This document shows positions 12,733-25,988 of a DNA stretch of 64,000 bases, one piece after another. Source of the DNA: Pseudomonadota bacterium (GTDB taxonomy: Bacteria; Pseudomonadota; Gammaproteobacteria; Burkholderiales; Methylophilaceae); contig JAKQIT010000074.1 of NCBI GenBank assembly GCA_029556915.1, positions 186,001-250,000 on the forward strand. Direction: 5' to 3'. The notes below the pieces were generated by a model. The model did not search any database. It was not told where the DNA came from and saw nothing but the letters and a program-made list of their open reading frames with translations. The stretch's first letter is position 1. Each line of letters begins with the position of its first letter. A program made the position numbers and the translations under genes.

Positions 12733-12969
12733 TTATTCGTCGCCTTCACCAATATTCATATTAACCATACGCGCTGGCACAATGGTTGAAATAGCATGTT
12801 TGTACACCATTTGGGTGACAGTGTTTTTAAGCAAAATCACATATTGGTCAAACGAATCAACTTGACCTTGTAGTTTAATACCATTGACGAGATAAATTGA
12901 TACGGCCACATGCTCTTTGCGTAACGCGTTTAGAAATGGGTCTTGTAACATTTGCCCTTTGGGATTCAT
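12733..12969 (-). CDS. hfq: RNA chaperone Hfq
   Basis: The 78-residue Sm-like protein starts [19 protein letters not shown]. The Sm1 strand set includes [20 protein letters not shown], and the Sm2 signature YKHAIST is intact. The hexamer matches small RNAs to mRNA targets. An AGGAGA ribosome site precedes the start. It is the first gene of the cluster, and the roughly 220-bp gap upstream holds its promoter. It is relevant to the small-RNA candidate at 25243-25302. Confidence 0.98.
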
Positions 12970-23594: not shown

Positions 23595-23653
23595 GTTCGC
23601 CTAAAAAATAATCTATAATGCAAATATACCATTGATTGCTTATTGAGAATATT

Positions 23654-25108
23654 GTGCGCGTATTATTTACTACTTCTGAAGTTTTTCCCCTTATCAAAAC
23701 TGGTGGCTTGGCTGATGTTAGCGGTTCGCTACCTGCGGCACTGCAGCACTTGGGCGTGGACATTCGTATCTTAGTGCCCGGTTACCCATCAGTATTAAAC
23801 CAACTCGCACCGCTCACGCATTTGGCACAACTTTCTGAGCTACCCGTGGTTGGTCAAGCAGAGTTGCTGATGGGTACAATCAAAGAAACCCAAGTAAAAG
23901 TCATGGTAATTAAATCTGCCAGCCTGTATGAGCGCGCAGGCGGCCCTTACGCAGATGCTAACGGCATGGAATGGCTGGACAATCCCGTGCGCTTTGGGAT
24001 TTTATCAAAAGTGGCTGCTATATTGAGCGGCAAAAACTCACCTTTAAAAGATTGGCAGCCCGATGTTGTGCACTGTAACGATTGGCAAACAGGCTTAACA
24101 CCCGCCTATATGAAACTGGTGGAACATACACCTGCAAAATCGATGATTAGCTTACACAACATGGCTTTTCAGGGCTGCTATGCGCCAAGCTGGCTACCTA
24201 CACTGGCTTTGCCAAGCACGCACTTTACGCTAGAAGGTTTTGAATATCACGGTTTGTTGTCATTTTTAAAAGCAGGTATTTTTTATGCTGATAGCATCAC
24301 CACTGTGAGCCCTAGTTATGCCAAAGAAATTCAAACTGCTGCATTTGGCTTTGGTTTGGAAGGCCTGCTAAGCAAGCGCGGGGACGAAATTAAAGGCATT
24401 TTGAATGGTATCGACACCAAAGAATGGAACCCGAAAACAGACACTCACCTTGCTAAAAACTATAGCGCCACACAATTAGCTGGCAAAGCTGAAGTTAAGC
24501 GTGCTTTGCAAGAAAAGTTAGGCCTGCAAGTTAAAGCCGATGCGCCATTATTAGGAGTAGTGAGTCGCCTCACGCATCAAAAAGGCTTAGATATGCTAGC
24601 ACCTATCGTGCAGCCCTTGCTGGATTTAGGCTGCCAATTGGTACTGCTGGGCGGTGGTGAAAGTGAACTTGAAAACGCTTTTAGACATTTGGCTAACAAC
24701 CATGCGGGTAGCGTGAGTGTGAATATTGGTTATAACGAGCCGCTCTCACATCAAATTATGGCGGGCAGTGATATGTTCATCATGCCTTCACGTTTTGAGC
24801 CTTGCGGTTTAAATCAACTTTACGGGCTAGCTTATGGCACACCGCCTATTATCAACGCGACTGGCGGCTTAGCAGATTCAGTCATCAACACCAACATCAT
24901 CACTTATAAAAACAAAACGGCGAATGGCTTTGTGTTAAGCGAAGCCAGCTCGGCGAGTTTACTCAGTTGTATTAAAGAAGCGATTAACGTATATAAAAAC
25001 GACGCAGCCGCTTGGAAGCAAATACAAAAAAATGGCATGTTGCAAAACTTAAGCTGGGATAAAAGCGCGCTGGAATACTTGGCAGAATACAAAAAGATGC
25101 TGCAATAG
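23654..25108 (+). CDS. glgA: Glycogen synthase (ADP-glucose)
   Basis: The GT5 glycosyltransferase has 484 residues from GTG 23654, giving VRVLFTTSEVFPLIKTGGLADVSG, the family N-terminus with the KTGGL ADP-glucose loop. An upstream TTG at 23636 is less likely. SRLTHQKGLDMLAPI and MPSRFEPCGLNQLYGLAYGTPP are the C-terminal nucleotide-sugar signatures. It elongates glycogen from ADP-glucose. No other glg gene is nearby, so it is an orphan here. A TATAAT box lies at 23614-23619. A REP element and the small-RNA candidate follow. Confidence 0.93.
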   Translation: MRVLFTTSEVFPLIKTGGLADVSGSLPAALQHLGVDIRILVPGYPSVLNQLAPLTHLAQLSELPVVGQAELLMGTIKETQVKVMVIKSASLYERAGGPYADANGMEWLDNPVRFGILSKVAAILSGKNSPLKDWQPDVVHCNDWQTGLTPAYMKLVEHTPAKSMISLHNMAFQGCYAPSWLPTLALPSTHFTLEGFEYHGLLSFLKAGIFYADSITTVSPSYAKEIQTAAFGFGLEGLLSKRGDEIKGILNGIDTKEWNPKTDTHLAKNYSATQLAGKAEVKRALQEKLGLQVKADAPLLGVVSRLTHQKGLDMLAPIVQPLLDLGCQLVLLGGGESELENAFRHLANNHAGSVSVNIGYNEPLSHQIMAGSDMFIMPSRFEPCGLNQLYGLAYGTPPIINATGGLADSVINTNIITYKNKTANGFVLSEASSASLLSCIKEAINVYKNDAAAWKQIQKNGMLQNLSWDKSALEYLAEYKKMLQ

Positions 25109-25138
25109 CAGCAATATTTATCGCACATCATTTTAATG

Positions 25139-25190
25139 CCTCTGCAAGCCTTATTTTATGTGGCTCCCAGAGGCATTAAATTTTCTCGGG
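25139..25190 (+). repeat. REP-like element (copy f)
   Basis: Arms CCTCTGCAAGCC and GGCTCCCAGAGG surround an unusual loop, TTATTTTATGT, followed by a tail ending TTTTCTCGGG. The loop resembles that of copy i in opposite genomic orientation. It lies directly after glgA. Confidence 0.85.
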
Positions 25191-25215
25191 AAAAATAATA
25201 CGAAGTTTTAAAAAG

Positions 25216-25231
25216 TTGGCATGAGGTTTGC
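25216..25231 (+). promoter_or_regulatory. Sigma-54 (-24/-12) promoter
   Basis: TTGGCATG, four bases, then TTGC matches the sigma-54 consensus (YTGGCACG-N4-TTGCW) with the invariant GG and GC and exact spacing. The predicted start is near 25243. There is no downstream plus-strand gene, only a structured region ending in a terminator, so it appears to drive a small RNA. Confidence 0.75.
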
Positions 25232-25242
25232 TTATATAAATT

Positions 25243-25302
25243 CAAGTCTCTCCAAGACTTAATCTTCCTCCCTCGGGGCACCTTAATCGGTGCCCTTTTT
25301 TT
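25243..25302 (+). ncRNA. Candidate sigma-54-dependent small RNA with anti-SD segment
   Basis: From the predicted start the roughly 60-nt transcript holds a 6-bp hairpin, AAGTCT/AGACTT (25244-25260). A single-stranded CU-rich linker follows, containing CTTCCTCCCTCG and hence the CCTCC anti-Shine-Dalgarno core. A strong rho-independent terminator ends it: GGGCACC, a 6-nt loop, GGTGCCC and seven Ts (25275-25302). No open reading frame fits. The layout matches Hfq-type trans-acting sRNAs. Existence and function are inferred. Confidence 0.7.
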
Positions 25303-25321: not shown

Positions 25322-25882
25322 TCACTTCACAATAAAGTGTTCACGGTAGTATTTTAGCTCGTCAATCGACTCATAAATATCCGCCAGAGCCTCATGTTTA
25401 CTGGCTTTCTTAAATCCAGCGTAGATTTCTGGCTTCCAGCGACGTGCCAATTCTTTAAACACGCTCACGTCTAAGTTACGGTAATGAAAGTAGCTTTCCA
25501 AATTGGGCATGTAACGTGCCATAAATCGTCGGTCTTGACAGATGGAGTTGCCGCACATGGGCGATTTTCCTGCGGGCACAAACTGTTTTAAAAAGTCTAT
25601 CATTTGCTGCGTAGCCATTTCCTCATCAAGCGTTGAGGCTTTAACTTTATCTATCAAACCTGAACGACCATGCGCACCTTTATTCCAAGCATCCATACCG
25701 TCTAAAATCGCATCACTTTGATGAATAACCAACACGGGTGACTCACCTAATACATTTAAATCTGCATCCGTGACCACAGCCGCTAGCTCTAAAATGCGAT
25801 CAGAATCTGGCAATAGTCCACTCATTTCCATATCTAACCAAATTAAATTATTTTGATTTGTACCGTTATTTATATCTGCCAT
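25322..25882 (-). CDS. orn: Oligoribonuclease
   Basis: This DEDDh 3'-5' exonuclease of about 186 residues degrades short RNAs and the c-di-GMP product pGp[12 protein letters not shown] holds the first Asp-Glu pair and [12 protein letters not shown] the middle Asp. [13 protein letters not shown] is the final His-Asp motif. ATG 25882 (MADINN) is preferred over ATG 25894, which lacks a ribosome site. It faces the small-RNA terminator, and the c-di-GMP genes at 28-31 kb are close by. Length is normal. Confidence 0.95.
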
Positions 25883-25988
25883 CATGATTTCCATTAAAAT
25901 ATGAGAATTAAAACCTATTGCGTGAACTAACAGCGCAAAAATGCTTCACAATGTCATCATATTAACTTAAATTTTGCCTATTTGACTC

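Follow-up and report, generated by a model that had tools for sequence, protein, structure and literature searches.

The gap between glgA and orn in the window, meaning the whole stretch of 64,000 nucleotides that was analysed, which begins at C14:186001 of its own genome (G000), poses the question of whether a pair of promoter-like boxes followed by a hairpin, a CU-rich segment and a terminator makes up a gene in its own right and, if so, what would switch that gene on and what its product would do. In many Methylophilaceae this gap looks, from sequence comparison, as though it carries an apparently conserved small-RNA gene of about 60 nt with its own sigma-54 promoter; this gene is called A below.

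Predicted promoter and RNA in the glgA-orn gap

The gap is 213 nt long and lies between the end of glgA on the plus strand (25108) and the end, on the minus strand, of a gene that we take to be orn, for oligoribonuclease (25322). Its features and neighbours, in window coordinates, are as follows.

23636..25108, plus strand: glgA, same-strand neighbour upstream, start codon uncertain; PF08323 match at G000:C14:209657-210373; syntenic in relatives
25216..25232, plus strand: predicted sigma-54 promoter, with the -24 box TTGGCA at 25216-25221, the -12 box TTGC at 25228-25231 and 10 bases between GG and GC
25242..25302, plus strand: predicted small RNA of about 61 nt, its start placed about 12 bases past the C of the -12 element
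25244..25260, plus strand: predicted 5' hairpin AAGUCU-CUCCA-AGACUU, stem 25244-25249/25255-25260, loop CUCCA
25261..25274, plus strand: CU-rich open linker UAAUCUUCCUCCCU, with the second anti-Shine-Dalgarno (anti-SD) motif CCUCCC at 25267-25272
25275..25302, plus strand: predicted intrinsic terminator, an 8-bp stem (25275-25282/25289-25296) followed by a T run
25322..25894, minus strand: orn, convergent neighbour downstream; syntenic in relatives

The first-pass annotation had described an exactly spaced -24/-12 promoter about 12 bases ahead of a 60-nt segment composed of a hairpin, a CU-rich linker and a strong terminator, with no open reading frame and with the next gene on the other strand, and this architecture is borne out. 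The promoter reads TTGGCATG-AGGT-TTGC at 25216-25231, a stretch spanned by TTGGCATGAGGTTTGC, with the C of the -12 box at 25231 and 12 bases separating that box from the start of the hairpin at 25244; compared with the sigma-54 consensus it is near-perfect by sequence. The segment 25242-25302 has a predicted folding energy of -20.3 kcal/mol (z = -5.44), and 0 of 200 dinucleotide shuffles fold as low. The first anti-SD motif, UCUCC at 25249-25253, has its CUCC part in the hairpin loop. No plus-strand open reading frame of at least 30 aa lies inside the RNA segment, and the plus strand of the gap upstream of it has no listed sigma-70-like site. The combination of its own promoter with an intrinsic terminator and U tail is that of an Hfq-type small RNA, and the -24 GG and -12 GC elements, which stand at the fixed spacing of sigma-54-dependent genes, are kept in relatives; an RpoN domain is encoded in the same genome. 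Sigma-54 control of the glgA-orn RNA gene is very likely on this sequence evidence.

Two side observations concern glgA itself. Its start may be a GTG at 23654 (MRVLFTTSEV...) rather than the mechanically listed upstream TTG (window 23636-23660), a region in which no clear ribosome site was seen by eye. Beyond its end, an imperfect repeat at 25115-25197, whose arms are 72% complementary and which by eye has a perfect 13-bp core (TTTAATGCCTCTG/CAGAGGCATTAAA), is possibly the gene's own terminator.

Conservation, spread and relation to the neighbouring genes

Within the genus, the extended promoter pattern TTGGCAYN5TTGCTTATATAA, with at most two mismatches allowed, gives 95 matches in 52 genomes against 3 for a reversed control (both tallied by hand), and among its three matches in the own genome the glgA-orn locus is the only one free of mismatches. 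Across the family, the pattern TGGCA-N7-TGC-N20-50-TCTCCTCC matches in 89 of 187 genomes, and its reversed control gives 2 matches. A search anchored on orn found that gene in 46 of the 52 genus genomes and the RNA at 39 of these 46 loci, 38 of them recognized by the strict promoter pattern and one (G069) by a covariance model; G063 and G066 have both glgA and orn, yet no covariance-model match. The GG/GC boxes, the CU motif and the terminator are kept in Methylophilaceae between glgA and orn, the comparison by which the initial reading had proposed to be judged.

Several of the counts given below refer to a set of 95 loci which was selected for the promoter, CUCC, a second C-rich motif and the terminator, and which holds some paralogs. 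Because of this selection the features alone are not evidence in that set, and the orn-anchored set of 46 loci is less biased. The subsets used are 94 loci for an NtrC scan, 84 of those 94 without near-duplicates for a scan of dyads and GlrR-type sites, 81 with both neighbours, and 92 to 94 for a later NtrC scan. In the promoter columns that the selection left free (it prescribed TGGCA, TGC and their spacing), a Y follows TGGCA in 95 of 95 loci and an R comes next in 93 of 95, which fits sigma-54.

The covariance model (R1) was built from an alignment of 39 sequences, comprising 38 orn loci and G073. UCUCC is invariant in 39/39 genus sequences. Changes on both sides occur in 9 of 13 stem pairs, against a shuffled mean of 4.5 and with 0 of 500 shuffles as high, although these shuffles ignore relatedness and the loci are not independent by descent. 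The terminator accounts for 5 of 7 modelled pairs changed on both sides, with 97.7% of cells paired, and the 5' hairpin for 4 of 6, with 73% paired; the pairing of the hairpin is weaker partly because some subgroups appear, by eye, to pair differently. The mean identity of promoter plus RNA is 72.5% (0.725; 400 random pairs from 81 loci), a figure that is somewhat inflated, since promoter and motifs were among the criteria for choosing these loci. It compares with 60.1% for the last 90 nt of glgA, with 41.9% (274 pairs) and 38.0% (228 pairs) for spacers, and with 51% reached by shuffled RNAs in the same pairwise comparison; the difference from the glgA end implies that the RNA is under more constraint than the adjoining coding end.

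At E<=1e-4 the model finds the RNA in 118 of 187 family genomes and 18 of 24 genera, usually beside glgA and orn where this was checked; this is a hand count which includes the genomes of the 39 model sequences, and the flanks were examined for part of it. The own genome scores 59.9 bits with its sequence included in the model. Among 41 matches whose flanks were tested, a sample that deliberately includes weak second matches, both neighbours are present in 23, glgA only in 3, orn only in 2 and neither in 13; one genome within the 118 (G121, genus g32) has neither gene in the stretch. Two small-genome genera (31 and 16 genomes, at most 1.4 Mb) have no R1 match below E 0.003. Loss of the RNA together with rpoN was considered for these genera and is not seen, since 39 of the 47 RNA-less small genomes keep an RpoN match. 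Of 399 genomes of the order, 19 match at E<=0.001; 7 of these are family members, and the other 12, scoring at most 37.6 bits, lie outside the family.

A core-pattern scan of named genomes returned 77 stretches, divided by hand count into 61 with the glgA-orn RNA and 16 from unrelated taxa (some genomes occur in two collections). The 61 have the promoter at no more than one mismatch in 60, a T run in 61 and glgA and/or orn in the stretch in 60; the 16 have the promoter in 1, a T run in 2, both in 0 and glgA or orn in 0, and look like chance matches. Named carriers include Methylophilus methylotrophus DSM 46235, Methylobacillus flagellatus L1B, M. glycogenes, Methylotenera versatilis 7 and Pseudomethylobacillus aquaticus, the last with an RNA core identical to that of locus L163, and the presence of the same RNA in these named members identifies the searched family as Methylophilaceae. 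Methylobacillus rhizosphaerae (L250) has kept the RNA and lost the -24/-12 boxes, and M. arboreus (L223) has TGTT instead of TGCT as its -12 box. L242, a Methylotenera-like locus in a record labelled Sulfuritalea, may sit on a misplaced contig.

The association of the RNA with its neighbours is not fixed. In five of the seven genus genomes that have orn but no RNA beside it (G009, G014, G019, G068 and G074) the RNA lies near glgA instead, sharing its contig and strand and no more than about 1 kb from its PF08323 match, and glgA is also seen beside it in L174 and L175. At L168 and L170 (genomes G173 and G179), promoter and RNA persist between orn and a gene which is presumably CrcB-like, and neither genome, of which G179 is a single contig, has a PF08323 match for glgA. 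A second full copy of gene A, promoter included, occurs at L147 (genome G110, contig C41) in a 4-kb stretch with neither glgA nor orn.

These rearrangements bear on whether the element could be nothing more than the terminator or 3' UTR of glgA, with promoter-like boxes and a CU motif that are incidental. That the -24 box follows the glgA stop closely, at a median of 33 nt over the 81 loci (a few boundaries set by the script are misplaced and give negative minima), is in keeping with such an origin and implies that glgA transcripts may end at the RNA terminator in many genomes. However, an RNA that accompanies glgA away from orn, and orn where glgA is gone, as at L168 and L170, is not merely a glgA terminator. 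Promoter plus RNA is also better conserved than the end of glgA, with UCUCC invariant; the L147 copy has its promoter in a stretch lacking both genes; and glgA in the window is already followed by an imperfect inverted repeat distinct from the RNA (25115-25150 / 25162-25197). This explanation is accordingly regarded as very unlikely.

The same shuffling of neighbours argues against an effect confined to orn, in which read-through from the convergent orn would be antisense to the RNA, so that the RNA either limits orn mRNA or is mopped up by it. The convergent arrangement is indeed kept, and the T run is close to the orn stop, at 19 nt in the window and at a median of 22 over the 81 loci, but the gene adjoins glgA away from orn in the five genomes named above, and its best conserved part is UCUCC and not the whole overlap. 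Such action in cis is highly improbable, and the reading preferred here remains that of a separate small-RNA gene.

Activator sites and related sigma-54 loci

The nitrogen signal that had been suggested as the reason for sigma-54 control is not borne out at the glgA-orn locus, where NtrC-type patterns, upstream and downstream of A, are at or below the level of shuffles; a similar RNA linked to amtB does have such sites. One pattern of the first NtrC scan had a spacer one base too long, and the later scan of 92 to 94 loci is the better test. An NtrC-type score of 9/10 is reached only at L149 (-246) and at L152 (-89), the latter not a glgA-orn locus. With no recognisable NtrC site at the glgA-orn gene, the sequence gives no support for nitrogen control of A. 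NifA-type patterns near A are at shuffle level, and GlrR-type patterns score 5.52 against 5.51, 5.81 against 5.52 and 8.02 against 7.71 in shuffles, two of the three being slightly above. A de novo search upstream of A gave three dyads above the shuffled maximum of 10, namely GCTG-N6-CAGC (15), TTTA-N8-TAAA (15) and AAAT-N13-ATTT (11); the TTTA and GCTG dyads were rejected as activator sites, nearly all matches of the former and most of the latter coming from one stretch of glgA codons. As a sigma-54-dependent gene, A would be activated by some enhancer-binding protein, which may be of a type outside these patterns.

The amtB-linked locus, B, was found by combining a sigma-54 promoter with UCUCCUCC at a longer spacing, which matches 26 times, in 24 of 187 genomes, and never in the reversed control; 21 of the matches have a terminator and 19 have amtB in the stretch. 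The B set of 22 loci consists of those 19 together with L172 in the own genome, L273, where amtB was seen, and L317, where it was not seen in the stretch; the amtB-linked loci, besides L172, include L295, L297-L301, L303-L305, L307, L310-L316, L318 and L319. B lies downstream of amtB, is about 65-105 nt long, and consists of a sigma-54 promoter, UCUCCUCC and a terminator, with an NtrC-type dyad upstream. Its copy in the own genome, which could be foreign because the contamination of that genome is 5.65%, is the following.

L172 1973-2064, contig C12: sigma-54 promoter, UCUCCUCC and terminator

The dyad TGCAC-N7-GTGCA, which has the canonical seven bases between NtrC half-sites, reaches a mean of 8.91/10 in the 22 B loci against 6.85 (sd 0.70) in Markov controls, and the best NtrC-type site lies 77 to 107 bases upstream of the promoter in 21 of 22; three other NtrC-like patterns tried on B are not above controls (7.05 against 6.83, 7.14 against 6.84, and 8.91/14 against 8.64). 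These sequence patterns indicate that the amtB-linked RNA is probably under NtrC control. A third sigma-54-linked locus, C, lies beside glyA in five genomes (L031, L078, L089, L328 and L329) and has a CUCC motif and a terminator; the same dyad has a mean of 8.0 there against 6.70 (sd 0.62), in the 4 of 5 loci with enough upstream DNA.

The shared design of A, B and C suggests a small family of sigma-54-controlled anti-SD RNAs. That the three form one common output module, with A answering to an enhancer-binding protein, B to NtrC and C standing at glyA, is a tentative proposal to which we give somewhat less than even chances; if it is true, several signals converge on the blocking of one class of ribosome sites through CUCC. 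In another family of the order, six of the 12 model matches outside Methylophilaceae (L266, L267, L280, L282, L285 and L287) fall directly after amtB on an element consisting of CUCC(CC) and a terminator, at which no -24/-12 boxes were seen by inspection. This element is possibly a 3'-UTR-derived relative of B, and its occurrence at amtB 3' ends in another family means that the link to amtB may predate the Methylophilaceae.

Elsewhere in the genus, sigma-54 promoters stand upstream of porin-like genes, of pilins and of an ANTAR-type regulator (names assigned by eye). The position 5' of a porin-like gene recurs at L068, L077, L079, L081, L083, L088 and L090 (SYNVGLFSQYIFRGLTQT-type), and at L088 an amtB homologue follows the porin-like gene.

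Known RNA families and proposed anti-Shine-Dalgarno action

Against Rfam 15, the window locus has no match at gathering score, and 20 relative loci have none either apart from a tRNA; the open-access literature searched yielded no description of the glgA-orn RNA and no regulatory small RNA of Methylophilaceae. The suggestion that the candidate is undescribed therefore holds within these sources, and A is apparently a new small-RNA family.

The only Rfam family that recurs at A is suhB/mmgR (RF00519), always below its gathering score of 41: it scores 17.2 bits in the window, 28.0 at L039, 23.8 at L048, 22.2 at L042 and 23.4 at the amtB-linked L300. This recurrence raises the alternative that A is a betaproteobacterial member of the MmgR/suhB (alpha-r8) family and not a new one. 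MmgR of Sinorhizobium meliloti, as described in excerpts of one report, resembles A in being short (77 nt), in the anti-SD motif predicted in its first loop and in its promoter type, RpoN being listed beside RpoD; it is NtrC-induced and linked to carbon storage as PHB, and it differs from A in being alphaproteobacterial and in having three predicted stem-loops against two (PMC7143759). The score of 41 is missed at every scanned locus, however; the sub-threshold match appears in 3 of 11 A loci scanned, with none up to E 5 in the other 8 (at one locus lacking it, L104, Burkholderia ncS025 matches instead, also below threshold), and A shows no NtrC-type site. Membership is distinctly unlikely, and A, as a family of its own, may work like MmgR-type RNAs though it does not reach the score that defines them.

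The resemblance to NfeR1, an RNA of nitrogen stress that belongs to alpha-r14, is one of redundant, unpaired anti-SD motifs on diverging stems; according to the available part of the source, NfeR1 has three hairpins, each with CCUCCUCCC, and a promoter without a sigma-54 signature, and its anti-SD motifs silence ntrB by blocking the ribosome site (PMC10746234). A has one hairpin, a linker and a terminator behind a sigma-54 promoter, an arrangement outside the alpha-r14 definition of three hairpins with CCUCCUCCC. Transcripts from RpoN promoters also give rise to NrsZ and CrcZ of Pseudomonas, Qrr1 of Vibrio and GlnZ of enterobacteria, for which excerpts of three reports describe no anti-SD-based action (PMC8395346, PMC9731577, PMC10162802); A is shorter than NrsZ (about 226 nt) and CrcZ (407 nt) (PMC8395346).

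The motifs on which A would depend are two. The first-pass annotation had placed the anti-SD function in the linker, and the second CUCC found there is indeed kept, with a mean predicted unpaired probability of 0.95; the CUCC of the hairpin loop, which is better conserved and which reaches 0.98, had been overlooked. These means, over the 95 loci, compare with 0.70 for CUCC in shuffled RNAs, and two or more CUCC occur in 93 of the 95 selected loci. Together with the invariance of UCUCC they give A the conserved single-stranded seed of an Hfq-type small RNA. CUCC forms the central part of the ribosomal anti-SD sequence, and from this, with NfeR1 as precedent, we infer that the glgA-orn RNA blocks Shine-Dalgarno sites. 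The gene for the Hfq chaperone lies in the window.

12763..12948, minus strand: hfq, PF17209, E 7.4e-29, G000:C14:198763-198948

The sequence of events would be as follows. RNA polymerase with RpoN would start about 12 bases past the -12 box and stop at the terminator, leaving a primary transcript of about 60 nt, a step strongly supported by comparison. The transcript would expose two single-stranded CUCC modules, in the 5' hairpin loop and in the linker, as structure and conservation support, and these modules, probably with Hfq, would base-pair with the GGAG-type Shine-Dalgarno sites of target mRNAs and so keep ribosomes from binding. Of the mechanisms considered, anti-SD action is the best and is likely from the motifs, and the explanation as a whole, a Methylophilaceae sigma-54 small-RNA gene acting by anti-SD pairing, seems to us a good deal more probable than otherwise.

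Targets in the window do not stand out. The linker had been expected to pair with the ribosome sites of many genes there, but over 56 initiation regions (starts chosen by script) the RNA forms duplexes no better than a shuffled RNA does, the mean energy being -8.12, where shuffled RNA gives -8.60 (sd 0.21) and shuffled initiation regions -7.81 (sd 0.28). A long perfect Shine-Dalgarno complement, GGGAGGAGAA-N1-9-ATG, occurs in only 4 of 52 genus genomes, and what matches in the own genome is the amtB-linked RNA read on its reverse strand. The CU motif pairs with a purine-rich sequence 5' of the promoter slightly better than shuffles do (mean z -0.55, 18% below -1.65).

The lack of a target signal in these 56 regions would suit a protein decoy, in which repeated CUCC and a U tail would sequester Hfq or a different RNA-binding protein in the way the A-rich motifs of CrcZ do, and so would short, repeated motifs that stay conserved as the stems diverge. 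Against this stands the place of CUCC at the core of the ribosomal anti-SD sequence, and we know of no bacterial protein with a preference for CUCC. In the sources as available, an RpoN-driven decoy exists in CrcZ (PMC8395346), but motifs similar to those of A work by base pairing in NfeR1 (PMC10746234). A decoy function is considered unlikely, and action by anti-SD pairing is preferred.

A predicted RNA gene that is kept in most genera of a methylotroph family, for which both the sigma factor, RpoN, and the active bases can be predicted, is directly testable in cultured species. The three sigma-54-linked types of locus, with their one design, would offer a simple case in which to learn how anti-SD RNAs whose seed matches broadly gain specificity.
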